NCBI RefSeq assembly: GCF_003367235.1
Contig: NZ_QRGP01000002.1
Location: forward strand, 62,001-126,000
Reading direction: 5' to 3'
Source: Sphingorhabdus pulchriflava
GTDB taxonomy: Bacteria; Pseudomonadota; Alphaproteobacteria; Sphingomonadales; Sphingomonadaceae
Length of the DNA: 64,000 bases
A program made the translations under genes and the position numbers. Below, one piece after another: positions 3,684 to 26,470 of the stretch (position 1 is its first letter; each line of letters starts with the position of its first letter). The notes beneath the pieces were generated by a model. The model saw only the letters and a list, made by a program, of their open reading frames with translations, searched no databases and was not told where the DNA came from.

Positions 3684-6371
3684 TCAGTTGCTTGCGGCAA
3701 TACGCTGCGACGGTTTCAAGATGACTTGCCCCAGATCGACCGTCGGGCTCTTACGATCGAGAGAGGCGGCCACGCTGATTTCGGGCTGCACTCCCACGAT
3801 ACTCGCGGCCACCGCGCCGACGCGAAGGCGGTATTGGCCATAGGGCACACTCTCGAACAGGAAAAAGCCGTCATATTCGCTGCGCGTGCTTTTCACGACA
3901 CGACCGGCCTTGTCGAGCAGCTCGATATCCACGCCATTTAGCGACTTCCCGCCCTCTTTGAGCAAATAACCACTGATTTCACCTGCTGACACCAACGGCA
4001 GTTCAACGACAATCGGAATCCCTGGCCGCGGGACGACGACCATCCCGCTATTGGCAGGCTGCACAAACGGATCAGGCAGGCTGCTTGCATCAATTCCGAT
4101 CAGGATCGGTACATAAGGTTCCAGTCCTCCGATAACGGTCTGCCCCGCATCGTCGGTAGCTCTGCCACGCCCATTCAAGCCGGCAGTAATTTCTATCGCT
4201 TTTTCAACAGGTTCGTTCGGTTGACGGATGCCATCCACATTCTGGTCCTGATAGACCAGCACCGCAGCCTGACCACTTGACGCCAGCTTTTCCGACGACA
4301 TGTGGAAGCCCTTGCCATGCGGATTGGGACCCATGCTAAAGGCAAGGCTGATCTGCGCGGCAACCGCGCCATCGGTTGCGCCCATGACCTGGCCGGTTAA
4401 TGCAAACTTCTCGAACTGCCGCGTATAGCCAAATGTCGCGCGCGCGCGTTTGTTGCGCGCGTCATAGCCAAGCTCGGCCCGCCAGTTCGCCTTATCATCC
4501 GCACGCCATTCGCCGGTGATGCGCGATTCCTTGAAACCGGTTTCACCCATCAAGCCAAAGCGCGCTTCACCGCGCAAGCGCAACCCGCCCACTCGGCCGC
4601 TGAGGCGCAATTGTGCGTCAAGCTTTTGCGGGGGATCGGTACCGAAGGCGAATTTCGTCTGCTCCCAGATTATGTCGGTAGATGCAGCTATATTCTTGAT
4701 ATTAAATGATATTCTGCCTTTGGCTTCGATAGTCCGATTGCCGTTCAACCACTCACGCAGCGTCGCGCTTACACCGTAAGGGATTGATCTTGTTCCGATT
4801 TTAATGCTGTGATCGACAGAGAGCATATGCTCTCCACGCAACCCCGGCAGATATTGCTCGCTGCGGAAACCACCAAACAGCCATAGCGACTGGGCACCGA
4901 CCATAGCCTGGCCAAATTGGCCAAGCATCTGACCGCGGACCGCATATCCGCCATCGATATTAGCCGCTCCTGCTACTTCGACCAGTGTCGGGCCGACTGC
5001 ACGGCGAACCATGGCTTCGAAATAGCTGTCACGGCGGCCTTCATAGATCGAACTTATCGCCGACGCGCCGACAGAGGTCTTCGCATCAAGCCCCCGTTCG
5101 ACACCGAAACCGGCACGCAAACCATTATAGGGCTGCTCATCACTATCACCAAAGTTGAAAAGATCGCGGCCAGCATCTTGGATGCCCGCCCAATAATAGG
5201 TTTCGCGCGGCGGAATCGAATTGGCCCCGACCGGGATCATCCGGACATCGCGCTTGATCTGACCCTGCGGACCATACAGCACGACTTCCATGCGGTTTTG
5301 GCCATAGAGCAACGGAACATCGAGAAATTCGTAGCGCCCATCGCCGCGACTCTGGAAATAGCCGATCAGCTGGTCGTTGCGATATAGCTCGGCATCCCAT
5401 CCATCGGGCAGTTCGCCCCGGAAGCTGGTTCGATCAAAATTATCAGGCCGCGACAAGGGGCGGTTGGTGACAAAAAGCCCGCGACCGGCGGTTGTCTGGC
5501 TGCCCAGGAAGGATGCGGGCAGTGAAACGTCGCCGATCCCGAAATGCGTGGCCTTCAGTGGCCCGAGCAGAGTACCCTCTGCGCTCGTCCGATAGGCGCG
5601 CACGCGAAAGCTTTCGGGAACACCATTTTCGTTCGAAGACAAACGCGCGTCATAAGAGGCACCCGCGATTTCACCGCTGGCAAAGATATCATAACGCGCG
5701 TTGAATTTGGCTGGGCCCTGCGCATCCTTGGTAAAGCCTGTTGACGCCACGACGTCGAACGAAGGCGTACGCCAAAAACGATAAGGATCCTTGGCTTGCG
5801 GAAGATTACGCAGGTCAAAGGTTGCAGCCGGGCGGACTTTGGCGGCGCGTTCTTTGCGCTCTTCGGCCAGTTCGAACGGCAATTTGCGATCCGCCTTCAC
5901 AACAAGCATCGCGTCGGACAGATCGGGAGTCAGCGACACATCGAGCCAACGGCTGAGCGCTTTGCTGTCCACGCACCAGCCTTCGGGCGTATCATAAATA
6001 TCCGACGCAGCGAGCGCCGAACTTTTGTTCATGATTTGTACCCTACCCGCTTCGCGGTCGAGGGTGAATGTCCGGCTTTCTTCGAACAACCAGCCAGTTG
6101 CGCGGCGCGACTTTTTATCCAGCCGTACCGGAAGGTCGAAAGCTATGATGATGTCAGCAAAATCGATGCAAACGCCGGCGTCGGTCTGATAGCCGCGCAC
6201 GCCATCGCCCACACGGTAGCGACCGGCGCGCACGTCGAGAAGCAATTGGTCATCGTCGCTGGCTTTCCATCCGCTCTGCGCAAAGGCAGAAGCCACCGGG
6301 GCCGTGACAGCTCCGGTGGCAATAGCCAGGGCAACTAGGCCTTGGCAAAAGATGGAAAATATCGACTTCAT
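3684..6371 (-). CDS. Usher-like outer membrane protein of a DUF4402-type chaperone-usher system
   Basis: 895 residues with a signal peptide ending near residue 31 (ASAFA-QS). It is a divergent fimbrial usher. Around residues 310-370 it has the usher hallmark: PDGWDAELYRNDQLIGYF followed by YEFLDVPLLYGQNR and YGPQGQ. A long beta-rich barrel-like stretch follows (to about 690). The first 130 mature residues do not look like a PapC N-terminal domain but like a small beta-sheet domain with paired cysteines. The last 100 residues (GEISGYLLKEGGKS.., SEYDGFFLFESVPYGQYRL) resemble a carboxypeptidase-regulatory or CnaB-like fold. It is the third gene after pilin and chaperone. Inferred role: outer membrane pore and assembly platform for the DUF4402 subunit. 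Confidence 0.75.
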   Translation of the reverse strand: MKSIFSIFCQGLVALAIATGAVTAPVASAFAQSGWKASDDDQLLLDVRAGRYRVGDGVRGYQTDAGVCIDFADIIIAFDLPVRLDKKSRRATGWLFEESRTFTLDREAGRVQIMNKSSALAASDIYDTPEGWCVDSKALSRWLDVSLTPDLSDAMLVVKADRKLPFELAEERKERAAKVRPAATFDLRNLPQAKDPYRFWRTPSFDVVASTGFTKDAQGPAKFNARYDIFASGEIAGASYDARLSSNENGVPESFRVRAYRTSAEGTLLGPLKATHFGIGDVSLPASFLGSQTTAGRGLFVTNRPLSRPDNFDRTSFRGELPDGWDAELYRNDQLIGYFQSRGDGRYEFLDVPLLYGQNRMEVVLYGPQGQIKRDVRMIPVGANSIPPRETYYWAGIQDAGRDLFNFGDSDEQPYNGLRAGFGVERGLDAKTSVGASAISSIYEGRRDSYFEAMVRRAVGPTLVEVAGAANIDGGYAVRGQMLGQFGQAMVGAQSLWLFGGFRSEQYLPGLRGEHMLSVDHSIKIGTRSIPYGVSATLREWLNGNRTIEAKGRISFNIKNIAASTDIIWEQTKFAFGTDPPQKLDAQLRLSGRVGGLRLRGEARFGLMGETGFKESRITGEWRADDKANWRAELGYDARNKRARATFGYTRQFEKFALTGQVMGATDGAVAAQISLAFSMGPNPHGKGFHMSSEKLASSGQAAVLVYQDQNVDGIRQPNEPVEKAIEITAGLNGRGRATDDAGQTVIGGLEPYVPILIGIDASSLPDPFVQPANSGMVVVPRPGIPIVVELPLVSAGEISGYLLKEGGKSLNGVDIELLDKAGRVVKSTRSEYDGFFLFESVPYGQYRLRVGAVAASIVGVQPEISVAASLDRKSPTVDLGQVILKPSQRIAASN

Positions 6372-8115: not shown

Positions 8116-9054
8116 TCAGAATTGTTCGCCCGTAAGCCTTTGGCAAAGCATGTCGAGTTGATCGAGGCTGCGATATTCAAAGGTCACCGCCCCTGCCCCG
8201 CCAGGCCCTTTATGCGCGATGCGTACCTTCAGCCCCAGAAGATCGCCCAGATGCTGCTCGACCGCGCGGATATCTGCGTCGTTCGCCGGGCCATCGCGGC
8301 TGATGCGGGGCTTTGCGGCGCTGCCGTCCTGAACGCGGGATTTGCGGACAAGCGCTTCGATCTGGCGAACCGATAGGCCCTGTTTGACGACCAGCGCCGC
8401 GAGGCGGGCATTATCATCAACGCCAATAAGTGCACGGGCATGACCCATGGACAGCTTGCCCTCTATTACCAGTTCGCGCACGAGCGAGGGCAACTCCAGC
8501 AGCCGCATCATATTGGCGACATGGCTGCGCGATTTCTCAACGATCGCGGCCAACTCACTCTGGCTGTGCCCGAAATCTTCGCACAGCTTGCGATAAGCCT
8601 CGGCCTCTTCAATCGGATTGAGGTCCTGCCGCTGGATATTCTCGATCAGCGCGATCTCAAGCGTTTCCTCGTCGGAAAGATTGCGAATAATGGCTTTAAT
8701 TTGGTGGAGTTGGGCGCGTTGCGCCGCGCGCCAGCGCCGTTCACCAGCGACAATTTGATAGCTCCCGCCATGCGGGCGAACGAGGATGGGTTGAATCAGG
8801 CCGTGCCGCTTCAGGCTTTGCGCCAGTTCCTCAATCGACTCGTCAGTAAAATGCCTGCGCGGTTGCGAGGGGTTGGGGTGGATATCGGCCGTCGCAATCG
8901 ACGAAACGCCCTCGGCAGCAGCAAGCGTTACCTTCTGCTCGCCACCGCTCGCTACGCGACCCGCGCTTCGATCGAGCGAAACCTCACCAAGCAAGGCGTC
9001 GAGCCCACGGCCTAGACCCATTTTCTTGCGCACAGGTTTTTCGCCGTCACTCAT
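8116..9054 (-). CDS. parB: Chromosome partitioning protein ParB
   Basis: 312 residues. It is the CTP-dependent DNA clamp that loads at parS and organises the origin for segregation. A short basic N-terminus (KKMGLGRGLDALLG) is the ParA-stimulating segment; residues about 50-140 hold the nucleotide/ParB-N domain with GERRWRAAQ and ENIQRQDLNP; a helix-turn-helix follows (HSQSELAAIVEKSRSHVANMMRLLELP); the C-terminal 45 residues are the dimerisation domain. The start overlaps the parA stop by 4 nt. Three parS palindromes lie 1.4-3.4 kb upstream in rsmG and mnmG/mnmE. Confidence 0.96.
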   Translation of the reverse strand: MSDGEKPVRKKMGLGRGLDALLGEVSLDRSAGRVASGGEQKVTLAAAEGVSSIATADIHPNPSQPRRHFTDESIEELAQSLKRHGLIQPILVRPHGGSYQIVAGERRWRAAQRAQLHQIKAIIRNLSDEETLEIALIENIQRQDLNPIEEAEAYRKLCEDFGHSQSELAAIVEKSRSHVANMMRLLELPSLVRELVIEGKLSMGHARALIGVDDNARLAALVVKQGLSVRQIEALVRKSRVQDGSAAKPRISRDGPANDADIRAVEQHLGDLLGLKVRIAHKGPGGAGAVTFEYRSLDQLDMLCQRLTGEQF

Positions 9055-9830
9055 GCAGCCAACTCCTCAGCCGGCAGACGCGCCAACAGTTCGCGAGCCA
9101 GACTCATATAAGCTTCGGAACCAGTGCACCGATGATCATAGATCAAGGCGGGCAAACCATGGCTGGGCGCTTCGGACAAGCGCACATTGCGCGGAATGAC
9201 GGTTTCGAACACCAATCCACTCAGGCAACTGCGCACATCTTCGGCAACTTGCTCGGTCAGACGATTGCGCCGGTCATACATGGTCAACGCAACACCAAGA
9301 ATCGATAATGAGGAATTGAAACGCTGCTGGATACGTTCAACTGTTTGTAAAAGCTGACTTAAACCTTCCAGCGCAAAGAATTCGCATTGCAATGGAACAA
9401 GGATGGAATCGGCTGCAACCAGTGCATTGATGGTCAACATCCCCAGCGACGGCGGGCAGTCAATCAGGCAGACATCCCAGCGCGCCTCTTCAAGTGCCAG
9501 CGCCTTTTGCAGTTTGTGCGCGCGATCGGTATGTTCTACCAGCTCGACCTCTGCCCCCGAAAGGTCAACTGTAGCGGGCAGAATATCGAGGCCGGGTATC
9601 ATGGTCGATGACACTGCCTCGTCCAGCGTCGCATCGCCCATCATCACATCATAGCTGCTATATTGACGGTCTGCGGTCTTCACGCCCAATCCGGTCGAGG
9701 CATTGCCCTGTGGATCGAGATCGATCAACAAGCAGCGACGCCCACATGCAGCCAGCGCGGTTGCAAGGTTGATCGCCGTCGTCGTTTTCCCGACTCCACC
9801 CTTCTGATTTGCAATGGCGATACGGATCAT
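9051..9830 (-). CDS. parA: Chromosome partitioning ATPase ParA
   Basis: 259 residues. The deviant Walker A motif KGGVGKTTTAINLATAL begins at residue 10, DLDPQGNASTGLG and DVCLIDCPPSLG (Walker B region) follow, and the family continues to the end. ParA-ATP coats the nucleoid and pulls ParB-bound origins apart. It overlaps both rsmG upstream (4 nt) and parB downstream (4 nt), so rsmG-parA-parB form one translationally coupled unit as in many alphaproteobacteria. Confidence 0.96.
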   Translation of the reverse strand: MIRIAIANQKGGVGKTTTAINLATALAACGRRCLLIDLDPQGNASTGLGVKTADRQYSSYDVMMGDATLDEAVSSTMIPGLDILPATVDLSGAEVELVEHTDRAHKLQKALALEEARWDVCLIDCPPSLGMLTINALVAADSILVPLQCEFFALEGLSQLLQTVERIQQRFNSSLSILGVALTMYDRRNRLTEQVAEDVRSCLSGLVFETVIPRNVRLSEAPSHGLPALIYDHRCTGSEAYMSLARELLARLPAEELAA

Positions 9831-10486
9831 CTTTTCTGCCGTCCTTTTGCCAGCCCCGTTTTGGCACTGGTTCCGCGCACTGAACCTACCAATATCCCCG
9901 CATCAGGGTCGGTCACGCTGGGTTGAACCGAAAAATCCAAATCCCACGCCTTGCTGGCTTCCTCAAGCTCATTAACCGCATTTCGTCCCTTTGGCAGCAA
10001 CCACATCGTCTTATCTGTGGAAAATCGTTCTGCGAGCGAAAGCAACTTCGGTAAAGGTGCGAAGGCGCGGGCACTAATGACATCATATTGGACGGTTTCC
10101 ACGCGTTCGACCGGCATTCCTGCGACTGAGGCCCGTCCTTCTATCCCGACCTGTCGGATGGCCCGATCTAAATAGTCGATTCGCTTTGCGCGCGATTCCA
10201 CCAGCGTCACTTGCCAATCGCTCAGCAAGGCAATCACAATTCCCGGGAAGCCCGCGCCAGAGCCAAGATCGATCCAGTTGCCCGAGCGGACAGGTGCCGA
10301 GAGTAACAATTGGGCGCTATCAACAATGTGTCGTGCCCAAATATACTCTAAGGTCGACGCAGAGATCAAATTCTGCTGGCTGGCCTCGGCTTTCAAGAAT
10401 GTGACGAACGCGTCGAGGCGGCCCCATGTTTCACGTGAAACATTAAACTGTTCAGCAAGCCAGGCTTTGGCTTCATCTTCGGTCAT
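9827..10486 (-). CDS. rsmG: 16S rRNA (guanine-N7) methyltransferase RsmG
   Basis: 219 residues, standard for RsmG/GidB, which methylates 16S rRNA near G527 using S-adenosylmethionine. The SAM-binding loop is [10 protein letters not shown] (73-82), and residues 83-97 continue the methyltransferase Rossmann fold. Codons 15-20 (NVSRET) are written by a perfect parS palindrome (10427-10442). The gene overlaps mnmG upstream and parA downstream by 4 nt each. Confidence 0.95.
10427..10442. other. parS centromere site 1 (inside rsmG)
   Basis: TGTTTCACGTGAAACA is a perfect 16-bp palindrome and an exact match to the parS form used in Caulobacter and relatives. It lies in the 5' part of rsmG, about 0.6 kb from parA and about 10 kb from the proposed origin. 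Confidence 0.95.
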
Positions 10487-12393
10487 GCAGCCTGCTTGTC
10501 GGCGCTTTGCGCGCGTTTGGCGTGAACAAGGATCGCCGCCAAGGCCGCAGGCGTGACGCCCCGGATTCGGCTGGCAGCAGCTAATGTGTCAGGCCGGGAA
10601 GCACTCAGGCGTTCGACCATTTCATTCGAAAGCCCGGCAATCGATTTGTAATCCAGAGTGGCAGGTATGCCGATGCGTTCATTCGCCGCCAGATCGCGCA
10701 ATTCCGCAGCTTGCCGGTCAACATAGGGTGCATAGCGCCCATCCTGTTCGACTTCGGCAATGATTTCAGCCGACCACATTTCCTCTATGTTATCGTCCAG
10801 AGATGTTCCACGTGGAACTTTGATCAAATCCTGCAGCCGCACCTCGGGGAATCGGAGCCAATCGATCATCGTCAACTTACCCGAATCACGCTTTACATGG
10901 ATGCCAGCTGCAATCAGTTGATCCGCCGACGCGCTCTGCTGCAAATATCCGTCCAACCGCGCCTTTTCCGAAGCATAGCTGTCATAGTGCCGCCTGCGGG
11001 CATCACCGATCACGCCGCACTCGATGCCGATCGGCGTGAGCCGCGTAGCTGCGTTGTCTGCACGCAGACGCAGGCGATATTCAGCCCGCGCGGTTAGCAT
11101 GCGATATGGTTCGGTCACGCCATGCAAGACGAGATCATCTACCATCACCGCAATATAGCTGTTCGACCTGTCGATTGCTGGAAAATCCCGATCCAATATC
11201 CAGCTCGCGGCACCCATTCCAGCTACCAGCCCCTGCGCAGCCGCCTCTTCATATCCCGTCGTACCATTGATTTGTCCCGCGCAGTACAGCCCTTCAAATC
11301 CTTGAATTTTTAACGAACGGTCTAGCGCACGCGGATCGATATAGTCATATTCGACAGCATAGCCGGGTACCGCCATCTCAACATGTTCCAGCCCCTTCAT
11401 CGAACGCACCATAGCCATTTGCACATCAGTCGGAAGCGATGTCGAAATCCCGTTGGGATAGATCAGATGGCTGTCCAGACCTTCAGGCTCTAGGAATACC
11501 TGGTGGCCGTCACGGTCACCAAAGCGGAAGATCTTGTCCTCGATCGATGGGCAGTAGCGTGGACCCTGTCCCTGAATCGCGCCCCCAAAAAGCGGCGACC
11601 GGTCGAGGCCACCTCGAATAATTTCGTGGGTTTGGCCGTTGGTGCGCGTGATCGCGCAAAAAAGCTGGGGAACATGGCGCCTGACTGTCATCGACGACAT
11701 CGTCCAGTCAGCACCATCGGAAGGCTGTTCCTCTAGCGCCGCCCAATCAATAGTCCGACCATCTAGCCGCGGCGGCGTCCCGGTCTTCAGCCTGGCCATT
11801 GGCAAACCGGCGCCGCGTATTTGCTCTGCCAGTTTCAACGCCGACGCTTCGCCAATGCGACCACCAGTCAGCCGCTCCTCGCCGCGGAACAGGGTTCCGC
11901 CCAGAAAAGTTCCCGTGCACAAAATCACGGCGCGCGTGCCGAGAATCGTACCATCCGCCAGCTCGAGACCTGAAATGCGCCGGTCATTCTCCGCTCGAAA
12001 GCAGAGTGCGGCTGCCTCGCCTTCGATGATCGACAAATTTTCAGTATCAGCCACTTGTCTGTGAATCGATGCTTTGAACAGTTTCCGGTCGGCCTGCACT
12101 CGCGGGCCCTGAACAGCCGCACCCTTTGATGCGTTGAGCATCCGATAATGGATCGCCGCATCGTCGGCAGCGCGCGCTATCAGTCCATCAAAGGCATCAA
12201 CCTCACGAACAAGATGGCCCTTGCCCAGCCCGCCGATCGCCGGGTTGCACGACATCGCACCTATGGTTTCTGCAGAAAAACTGACCAGCCCGACCCGCAC
12301 ACCCATGCGCGCAGCGGCAGCAGCTGCCTCTACGCCTGCATGACCTCCGCCCACCACAAGAACGTCAAAGTCTCTATCCGACCGAATTGTCAT
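10483..12393 (-). CDS. mnmG: tRNA uridine-5-carboxymethylaminomethyl modification enzyme MnmG
   Basis: 636 residues from the ATG at 12393, which gives the usual MnmG start. A longer upstream frame would run through the parS site and into the end of mnmE. The FAD-binding [10 protein letters not shown] is at 15-24, with later family blocks [18 protein letters not shown] and the [13 protein letters not shown] segment. With MnmE it installs the aminomethyl group on the wobble uridine of certain tRNAs. Codons near 525-530 (KVPRGT) carry a parS-like palindrome. The order mnmE-mnmG-rsmG-parA-parB is a conserved origin-proximal cluster. Confidence 0.95.
10804..10819. other. parS-like site 2 (inside mnmG)
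   Basis: TGTTCCACGTGGAACT contains the perfect 14-bp palindrome GTTCCACGTGGAAC. It differs from the best parS consensus in the right half (GGAAC instead of GAAAC) and at the last base. Since two consensus sites flank it within 2 kb, it is probably a third, perhaps weaker, ParB site. Confidence 0.75.
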
Positions 12394-12440: not shown

Positions 12441-12456
12441 TGTTCCACGTGAAACA
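12441..12456. other. parS centromere site 3 (mnmE-mnmG gap)
   Basis: TGTTCCACGTGAAACA is identical to the classical Bacillus subtilis parS consensus. It lies in the 67-bp gap between the mnmE stop and the mnmG start, about 8 kb from the proposed origin. Confidence 0.95.
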
Positions 12457-19090: not shown

Positions 19091-20125
19091 TTATCCCCCG
19101 CGGACCAAGTTAAGCAGCTTTTCAACATGCGCAATGGGCGTGTGTTGCAAAATGCCATGGCCGAGGTTGAAAATATGCGGGCGGTTTTCGAAAGCAGCCA
19201 AAATCCGGGCGACAGCGCTTTCCAGTGCCTCACCAGCAGCTATCAATGCCAGCGGATCGAGATTGCCTTGCACCGGCAGGCCTTCGGGCAGCGACGCATT
19301 GGCCCAGACAGGGTCGATGGTTTCGTCTAGCCCAATAGAATCAGGCCGGACTTCGCGGGCATAAGCCACCAACTTGGCACCGGCACCTTTTGGAAAACCG
19401 ATAATTGGCGTATCCGAATGCCGTTCGCGCAAAGCCGAGACAATCGCCGCATTAGGCGCTATCACCCAGCGTTCGAACTGCGCCGGGCTCAGCGAACCTG
19501 CCCAGCTATCAAACAACTGCACCGCATCAACGCCTGCCTCGATCTGCTTTGACAGATAATCAATGGTGGTTGCTGTTATGGCGTCAATCAGTTCGCCGAA
19601 CTTCACCGGATCCGAATAGGCGAGCGCACGCGTTTCTGCATGGTCCTTGCTGCCCTGCCCCGCCACCATATAGGTCGCAACGGTCCAGGGGCTTCCGGCA
19701 AAGCCGAGGAAGGTGGTTTCGGCTGGTAGGGCAGCCCGAACCTTCCGTACCGTCTCATAAACCGGCTCCAACCGTTCTGGCGCAGGGGTGAAATCGTGCC
19801 AGTCATTTTCAGACAGCTTGGGTGCAAGACGCGGGCCCTCACCAGTCTCAAACCAAAGATCCTGACCCATCGCGTGCGGGACGACAAGGATATCGGAAAA
19901 CAGGATCGCCCCATCAAAACCGAAACGGCGGATCGGCTGTAATGTGATCTCGCACGCCGCGTCGCTATCATAAGCGAGTTTGAGGAATCCGCCCTTCTGC
20001 GCACGCAACTCGCGATACTCGGGAAGGTAGCGTCCGGCTTGGCGCATGAGCCAGACTGGCGGCACGTCGAGCTTTTGACCTCGCAATACGGCAAGCAGTT
20101 TTCGATTGGGCAATTCGGTCGCCAT
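19091..20125 (-). CDS. hemE: Uroporphyrinogen decarboxylase
   Basis: 344 residues from the ATG at 20125 (MATELPNRKLLAVLRGQ). The family start PPVWLMRQAGRYLPEYR is near residue 20, then ILFSDILVVPHAMG, FAGSPWTVATYM and FNLGHGILQHTP near the C-terminus. It removes four carboxyl groups from uroporphyrinogen III to make coproporphyrinogen III. It faces ppsR across the 292-bp proposed replication origin, the same arrangement as in Caulobacter. Confidence 0.96.
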   Translation of the reverse strand: MATELPNRKLLAVLRGQKLDVPPVWLMRQAGRYLPEYRELRAQKGGFLKLAYDSDAACEITLQPIRRFGFDGAILFSDILVVPHAMGQDLWFETGEGPRLAPKLSENDWHDFTPAPERLEPVYETVRKVRAALPAETTFLGFAGSPWTVATYMVAGQGSKDHAETRALAYSDPVKFGELIDAITATTIDYLSKQIEAGVDAVQLFDSWAGSLSPAQFERWVIAPNAAIVSALRERHSDTPIIGFPKGAGAKLVAYAREVRPDSIGLDETIDPVWANASLPEGLPVQGNLDPLALIAAGEALESAVARILAAFENRPHIFNLGHGILQHTPIAHVEKLLNLVRGG

Positions 20126-20417
20126 GCAAGAATCCAATAAACAAATATAGATATAAGGATGATGAAATATGATGCGCTGTGGGCAAGTGTGGCCCTTAGG
20201 CACATATCTATCTTTTGCCAACATATTGACTCTGTAGCCTGCTTGAATCCTGACGATTCGGGATTCGCTGTCCCCGTTATTCACAGGCTGTGGAATGGGC
20301 TTTCCGGCTGTGGATGAACTGTGCCCGAATCCGATAGAGAGTCAGGACGGAAGCGGCATAAAAGAAGTCCCCATTTTCATCCCTTGATTTATCCCCAAGC
20401 AGCCCACAAAGCTGTGC
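20126..20417. other. Proposed chromosomal replication origin (oriC) between hemE and ppsR
   Basis: This 292-bp gap has a perfect DnaA box TTATTCACA at 20277-20285. Near-matches lie at 20309-20317 (TGTGGATGA, reverse), 20389-20397 (TTATCCCCA), 20289-20297 and 20178-20186. The stretch 20130-20175 next to hemE is strongly AT-rich and could be the unwinding element. Seven GANTC sites (20130, 20228, 20245, 20255, 20262, 20327, 20339) are far more than the one expected. No TTAA-type CtrA site is seen. The flanking genes are those of the Caulobacter and Rickettsia origins. Gene directions diverge from here and three parS sites are within 10 kb. Confidence 0.8.
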
Positions 20418-21275
20418 GTGAAGGACCTGATTTTGCAAAACCGCATCCATCTCCATCTGCTTTCGGATTCCACCGGTGAGACGCTGGAAAACATTGCCAA
20501 AGCGGCGCTGGCGCAGTTTGACGAGGTAGACGTGGTCAAGCATTTCTGGCCGATGGTGAGGTCCGAAGCGCATCTCGATCGCATCCTCGTGGATGTTGCT
20601 GCAAATCCGGGGCTGGTGCTGTTTACGTTGGTCAATCTGGCGATGCGGCAGAAACTGGAAGATCGCTGCAGGGCACTGGGCTTACCCGCAGTCGCGGCGC
20701 TCGACGCAGTGTCAGATGCGCTATCCGGCATATTGGGACAACAGGCAAAGGCCCGCCCGGGGCGACAGCATGCGCTCGATGCCGCCTATTTTGCCCGGGT
20801 CGAAGCGATCCAGTTCACGATTGCACATGATGACGGCCTTAATCACCATAATTGGGAAGAAGCGGATATACTTCTCGCCGGGGTCTCGCGCACTTCTAAG
20901 ACGCCGACGAGCATCTATCTTGCTAACCGCGGCTACAAAACGGCGAACATCCCGTTGGTGCCTGAATCCCCGCCGCCAGCGGCGCTCTATAGTTTGAAAC
21001 ACCCCTTTGTAGTTGGCTTGGTGACAGGTGTGGACCGATTAGTCCAAGTCCGCCGCAACCGGCTTCTGACTCTGAACCAGGCACCCGACACTGACTATGT
21101 CGACGAAGAAAAGGTCAAAGCCGAAATCGCATACGCCCGGCGTATTTTTGCCGACAATGGTTGGCCGGTCATTGATGTCACGCGTCGGTCGATTGAGGAA
21201 AGTGCCGCTGCCATCATCAACCTCTACAATGAGCGTCAGCAGCAAGACGCGGTGCTGAAGGGCGATGACGCTTGA
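20418..21275 (+). CDS. ppsR: Pyruvate, water dikinase / PPDK regulatory protein (DUF299 kinase-pyrophosphorylase)
   Basis: 285 residues. The N-terminus HLHLLSDSTGETLENIAKAAL and the P-loop-like GVSRTSKT (155-162) with PTSIYLANRGYKTANIPLVP identify the bifunctional ADP-dependent kinase/phosphorylase family that switches PEP synthase or pyruvate phosphate dikinase on and off. Which of the two enzymes is the target cannot be told. The start is taken as GTG at 20418; no strong Shine-Dalgarno sequence is seen. Its homologue flanks the origin in Caulobacter and Rickettsia. It overlaps maf by 4 nt. Confidence 0.92.
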   Translation: MKDLILQNRIHLHLLSDSTGETLENIAKAALAQFDEVDVVKHFWPMVRSEAHLDRILVDVAANPGLVLFTLVNLAMRQKLEDRCRALGLPAVAALDAVSDALSGILGQQAKARPGRQHALDAAYFARVEAIQFTIAHDDGLNHHNWEEADILLAGVSRTSKTPTSIYLANRGYKTANIPLVPESPPPAALYSLKHPFVVGLVTGVDRLVQVRRNRLLTLNQAPDTDYVDEEKVKAEIAYARRIFADNGWPVIDVTRRSIEESAAAIINLYNERQQQDAVLKGDDA

Positions 21276-25750: not shown

Positions 25751-26470
25751 ATGAAATTCCTCCTCAAGACCGCACCTGTTGCGGTTGCTTCGCTCACGCT
25801 ACTTGGCGGAGCTGCCTATTCGGACGCCGGTTTTGCATTCGGCGCTTCAAATGGCGAAAAATTGTCAGCGCAGACGATCGCGATTGATCCGACCGTCCTT
25901 GCAGCAGACCAAGCCGCGTTGACTGCGGCGACCACCGGAACAGTTTCGGTGACCAAACTTCCAAATGGCGATGTGATTTTCACCCCTGGCACTGGAGTGT
26001 CGGACGCTGAGGTGCGTGTTGTAGAGCCTGCTGCCGAGGACAAAGAAATCAATAAGGCCGACAGCCTTTCAGAACTGGTCCGTGCACATGGCGCGCCCGA
26101 CGAGTTGGACGCAGAAGAACGCTGCCTTGCAGGTGCTGTATACTTCGAATCGAAGGGTGAGTCGCTCGAAGGCCAGCTCGCCGTCGCCCGCGTTGTGATG
26201 GCCCGCGCCAAGTCGGGTCGTTTCCCCACTTCGCTGTGCGGTGTCGTCTACCAGAAGAGCCAGTTCTCGTTCGTCCGTGGTGGACGAATGCCTGCCATCA
26301 ACACCGGCAGCCTGCACTGGCGCAATGCTGTTGCGATCAGCCAGATTGCGCTAGACGATAGCTGGAAAAGTCCGGTTGAGGGCGCGCTGTTCTTCCACGC
26401 GCGCCATGTTTCACCCGGCTGGCGCCTGAAGCGCATTGGATCGATCGACAACCATATCTTCTATCGCTGA
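25751..26470 (+). CDS. Cell wall hydrolase (SleB-like, PF07486 type)
   Basis: 239 residues with an N-terminal signal or anchor segment (residues 5-30). A low-complexity spacer runs to about 115, and the SleB-like hydrolase domain fills 118-239: EERCLAGAVYFESKGE with the catalytic glutamate E133, GQLAVARVVMARAKSGRFP, CGVVYQKSQFSF and ALFFHARHVSPGW. Related enzymes cleave peptidoglycan glycan strands. It has its own 170-bp upstream gap and is followed by a terminator. Confidence 0.9.
   Translation: MKFLLKTAPVAVASLTLLGGAAYSDAGFAFGASNGEKLSAQTIAIDPTVLAADQAALTAATTGTVSVTKLPNGDVIFTPGTGVSDAEVRVVEPAAEDKEINKADSLSELVRAHGAPDELDAEERCLAGAVYFESKGESLEGQLAVARVVMARAKSGRFPTSLCGVVYQKSQFSFVRGGRMPAINTGSLHWRNAVAISQIALDDSWKSPVEGALFFHARHVSPGWRLKRIGSIDNHIFYR

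Follow-up and report, generated by a model that had tools for sequence, protein, structure and literature searches.

The 292-bp intergenic gap between hemE and ppsR is very probably the oriC of the main chromosome, and we predict from its sequence that it has replication activity. The window, that is, the whole stretch of 64,000 nucleotides analysed here, corresponds to positions 62001-126000 of contig C2 in a genome of 3.22 Mb on six contigs, and its closest named relatives are Sphingorhabdus and other Sphingomonadaceae. The gap lies at 20126-20417 of the window (C2:82126-82417) and contains 47% GC (53% AT), compared with 55-57% GC in its surroundings. Its designation as an origin in the preliminary description is supported by synteny, the skew minimum, DnaA boxes, parS sites and a conserved anatomy. 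The result would locate the start of replication in this genome, and it gives a family-wide map of conserved origin parts.

20126-20417, no strand: predicted oriC, the hemE-ppsR intergenic gap (synteny, skew, clustering of boxes and GANTC sites, conserved length and anatomy).
19091-20125, minus strand: hemE, the left boundary gene (TIGR01464, 401 bits).
20418-21275, plus strand: ppsR (COG1806/DUF299/PF03618), the right boundary gene (NF003742, 323 bits; PF03618).

The profile matches of hemE and COG1806/ppsR confirm that the gap is bounded by the genes previously named as those of the Caulobacter and Rickettsia origins. Both genes bound the experimentally located Caulobacter origin and also the origin of Rickettsia prowazekii (PMC1914354), whose gap is 384 bp long with 82.6% AT, whereas the present one is 292 bp with 53% AT. 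Two reports place oriC next to hemE, one in most Sphingomonadaceae (PMC4741004) and the other in Novosphingobium PP1Y (PMC4059872), and describe DnaA boxes that are conserved as well as a putative unwinding element. The location of the gap is thus ordinary, and the origin call is not new in kind. Among 20 sampled alphaproteobacteria, hemE is found just upstream of ppsR in 17. The box spacing differs across this class, indicating that the detailed anatomy of the gap is a sphingomonad feature. For this anatomy, 80 related loci were compared together with the window, yielding 80 aligned gaps (one locus lacks hemE). The gap measures 273-303 bp in nearly all of them and 360 bp in one, with a median of 286 bp and a 5-95% range of 277-294 bp.

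Gene directions diverge from the gap in its vicinity, as had been described. To the left of hemE, the genes hemJ, rho, mnmE, mnmG, rsmG, parA and parB are, like hemE itself, all on the minus strand. To the right of ppsR, maf, aroE, coaE, dnaQ, a hibernation factor gene and ptsN are all on the plus strand, and the plus-strand run extends from ppsR to the gene at 25751-26470, which is followed by proC on the minus strand. The dnaA gene is located far away, at C1:1499692. An upstream GTG start of hemE at 20284, which would place coding sequence inside the gap, was rejected because the frame stays open for at least 50 codons in just 7 of the 80 gaps, and because the ATG at 20125 agrees with the HMM match. 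Elsewhere in the window, an 895-aa open reading frame on the minus strand (3684-6371) has no NCBIfam match at E 0.001.

The cumulative GC-skew minimum of the window is located at ~20 kb. Genome skew was computed from sampled 20-kb stretches in the contig order C2, C1, reversed C3, which we inferred and chose because it keeps the skew sign consistent. In this order the minimum falls at C2:80001 and the maximum at C1:1.085 Mb, 1.69 Mb apart. Two of the other orders shift the minimum to contig 3, and another puts it at C2:155001, nearly tied with C2:80001, so the genome skew minimum alone is not proof. Moreover, the skew near the gap is weak and nearly flat over tens of kb. In Sphingorhabdus sp. 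109, which has a single large contig of 3.56 Mb, the minimum forms a plateau at 2.60-2.70 Mb, the homologous gap lies at 2.598 Mb and the maximum at 1.15 Mb; the lowest sampled point is ~100 kb from the homologous gap. The skew check suggested earlier, in which a distant minimum would speak against an origin here, therefore favors the gap, as the minimum is adjacent to it in the window and in the best contig order, and the plateau of the relative includes its counterpart. Separately, C3:1-70000 shows almost no skew or a reversed one, and its GC content drops to 49% at 50-60 kb; this may reflect a recent rearrangement or acquired DNA.

The partition system is encoded on the hemE side of the gap.

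10427-10442, no strand: parS, exact 16-bp palindrome TGTTTCACGTGAAACA.
12441-12456, no strand: parS, one mismatch.
8116-9830, minus strand: partition genes parB and parA (profile matches).

The TGTTNCACGTGNAACA (parS) sites at 10427 and 12441 are the only two in the whole genome, and the closeness attributed to them amounts to 9.7 and 7.7 kb from the gap. The parA assignment is based on ParA-family matches below curated cut-offs in a gene adjoining parB. A weaker third parS-like palindrome, with three mismatches, lies at 10804-10819, inside mnmG and between the two good sites.

DnaA boxes are clustered within the gap.

20277-20285, plus strand: central DnaA box TTATTCACA, followed by an inverted CTGTGGA; fits TTATNCACA; 64 of the 80 gaps have it with no more than one mismatch.
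20309-20317, minus strand: DnaA box TCATCCACA, one mismatch, moderately conserved.
20389-20397, plus strand: right DnaA box TTATCCCCA within the conserved TCCCTTGATTTATCCCCA, one mismatch.
20178-20186, minus strand: weak left DnaA box TTGCCCACA, differing from the consensus at two positions; some relatives have a better match.

The single perfect box of the preliminary description is perfect for the degenerate consensus TTATNCACA and not for TTATCCACA, of which no exact copy occurs within the 292-bp gap. The near boxes it mentioned are present, with one mismatch at 20309 and 20389 and weaker at 20178 and at 20196 (TTAGGCACA). The frequency of boxes with no more than one mismatch is 0.11 per kb across a 1.85-Mb sample (58% of the genome). 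Three of them inside 292 bp were encountered just twice in this sample, once in the gap, where they span about 120 bp, and once at C1:2075711-2075748. In relatives, the mean density of such boxes is 9.4 per kb inside the gap versus 0.21 per kb in the flanks. In addition, nowhere in the whole genome of Sphingorhabdus sp. 109 except the homologous gap do two TTATNCACA boxes lie within 100 bp. Counted against oriC at the gap are the missing exact TTATCCACA, the flat skew, the inferred contig order and the second box cluster.

This second cluster is situated directly after fumC, and that it represents the origin is extremely unlikely. Apart from the gap, it is the only group of three boxes in the sampled genome, and its boxes are the better ones, with two exact TTATCCACA copies 29 bp apart and a reversed near-box between them, all in 38 bp. 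However, it was rejected as an origin since the skew is negative on both sides with no switch, the box pair is absent from Sphingorhabdus sp. 109, and the cluster is present in just 3 of the 41 genomes searched, all of the same genus; it also has no parS. The fumC cluster is possibly a DnaA titration or regulatory site.

The gap assigned here as oriC is also rich in GANTC sites, one of which belongs to a conserved arrangement.

20130-20343, no strand: seven GANTC sites (20130, 20228, 20245, 20255, 20262, 20327 and 20339), exact matches.
20255-20259, no strand: GANTC (CcrM) site at a constant position, 22 bp upstream of the central DnaA box.
20215-20230, no strand: conserved block TTGCCAACATATTGAC, the genome's only exact TTGCCAACANNTTGAC.

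The seven sites, originally counted in about 210 bp, are exact and occupy 214 bp. First-order Markov sequences of the gap contain a mean of 1.2 GANTC and reach seven or more in 0.035% of cases, and the gap is the top 292-bp window for GANTC in the 1.85-Mb genome sample. Over the whole window the motif is rarer than expected (153 observed versus 277 in shuffles). Related gaps carry 10.3 GANTC per kb versus 2.6 in their flanks. Positions were counted as offsets from the central box instead of alignment columns, because the alignment shifts by one base. A GANTC starts at -21/-22 in 77 of 80 gaps, any GANTC falls within 30 bp of the central box in 78 of 80 (shuffles would give 10%), and 76 of 80 have a TTGAC beginning at -50 to -52, although these counts are not independent events because the sequences are related.

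Reading from hemE, the conserved order comprises the AT-rich stretch, a GATGATG-type repeat, a DnaA-like box, TTGCCAACA-NN-TTGAC, GANTC, TTATCCACAG with the inverted CTGTGGA, more CTGTGG motifs, and TTGATTTATCCCCA adjoining ppsR. Between these blocks many alignment columns are near random, and the GC content of the gap ranges from 29 to 60% among relatives. We found no description of the fixed GANTC and the TTGAC block in the literature searched, supplements and most subscription papers aside. Reports on the oriC of Sphingopyxis and other Sphingomonadaceae as predicted by Ori-Finder and DoriC, which concern the same origin beside hemE in a related genome, are silent in their main text on both the fixed GANTC and the TTGCCAACA-TTGAC block (PMC4741004, PMC4059872). 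On the minus strand, the TTGCCAACATATTGAC block is one mismatch from the IHF consensus, and its conserved letters in relatives include ones not required by IHF. The gap contains three one-mismatch sites for this consensus, WATCAANNNNTTR, and no exact one. The IHF-like one-mismatch sites at 20219-20231 and 20377-20389 each lie inside a highly conserved origin block.

The constant mutual distance of TTGAC and GANTC could also be read as a promoter signature, the conserved blocks serving hemE and ppsR mainly as their divergent promoters and leaders, for example under GcrA/CcrM control with TTGAC as the -35 element and GANTC near the start, and the true origin lying elsewhere. The presence of ccrM and gcrA genes and the general enrichment of GANTC between genes in Alphaproteobacteria (PMC3973325) agree with this reading. 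Nevertheless, a sigma-70-like promoter scan of the gap found none, and TTGAC was rejected as an ordinary plus-strand promoter element, as no conserved -10 follows it in the aligned relatives. Such promoters would moreover leave unexplained the 45-fold enrichment of DnaA boxes over the flanks, the skew switch and the parS sites, which makes a gap without origin function very unlikely. Promoters and oriC could be compatible at once.

The part of the predicted oriC adjacent to hemE has the composition of an unwinding region.

20131-20170, no strand: AT-rich stretch, candidate DNA-unwinding element, 80% AT over 40 bp.
20157-20174, plus strand: trinucleotide-rich block GGATGATGAAATATGATG; relatives have GATGATGAAAGATGATG or GTTGTTG-type repeats; putative function.

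The AT-rich flank noted before is confirmed; its 80% AT over 40 bp is reached by 0.04% of window positions, and it occupies the same place in most relatives. The trinucleotide block raises the possibility, doubtful at present, that DnaA-trios beside the left box form a basal unwinding system as in Bacillus subtilis, a sub-mechanism compatible with oriC. The gap resembles that system in having a box, a short spacer and trinucleotide repeats beside an AT-rich stretch. Under the published rule (PMC8287927: box with at most two mismatches, spacer of 0-16 bp, at least three 3'-NAN-5'), the box at 20178 qualifies with five trios and an 11-bp spacer, and 78% of the gaps match somewhere versus 16% of shuffles. 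However, trio runs anchored on the left box average 2.7, versus 2.6 in shuffles of the same AT-rich tail, so there is no excess over this composition control. The repeat polarity differs as well, the repeats of the window being 3'-TAG-5' and the commonest trio 3'-GAT-5'.

The arrangement of these parts suggests how initiation at the gap may proceed. DnaA would occupy the boxes at 20277 (central), 20309 and 20389 (flanking) and would extend to the weak left box at 20178, perhaps with the aid of a DNA-bending protein bound to the TTGCCAACATATTGAC block. The AT-rich stretch at 20131-20170 beside hemE would melt, and two forks would depart in opposite directions. ParB on the parS sites 8-10 kb away would separate the new origins. 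CcrM is expected to methylate the GANTC sites, and the GANTC that precedes the central box by two helical turns may make initiation, or a nearby promoter, responsive to the methylation state.

The genome encodes a CcrM-like methyltransferase (a protein with PF01555 and a RAMA domain, C1:1261676) as well as GcrA and CtrA. Both features of a CcrM-methylated origin, the seven GANTC sites and a ccrM gene, are hence present, and methylation itself is predicted. As reported in the preliminary description, no CtrA motif (TTAA-N7-TTAA) is present in the gap, even at two mismatches. The Caulobacter crescentus origin Cori shares the hemE/COG1806 boundaries, DnaA boxes, an AT-rich stretch and GANTC sites with the gap (PMC1914354, PMC3973325), whereas it has five CtrA sites and a length of more than 400 bp, and its IHF site has no clear-cut equivalent here. 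Loose CtrA-motif matches occur in many relatives, and AT-rich sequence also yields such matches. This origin may plausibly be controlled in another way than that of Caulobacter, but the genome does have ctrA, and it is just the strict motif that is missing.

A bolder and rather unlikely proposal is that the CcrM site 21-22 bp from the central DnaA box, together with the TTGAC block 30 bp before it, forms a dedicated sphingomonad methylation switch, in which full or half methylation would act once per cycle as a gate on the assembly of DnaA or on an origin promoter, in place of CtrA repression. The Caulobacter origin has GANTC sites, and its initiation shows no defect without CcrM (PMC3973325). 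As initiation control in Caulobacter is unchanged by CcrM loss, the GANTC at fixed spacing in sphingomonads makes it possible to ask directly whether methylation plays a part in initiation in another alphaproteobacterial branch.
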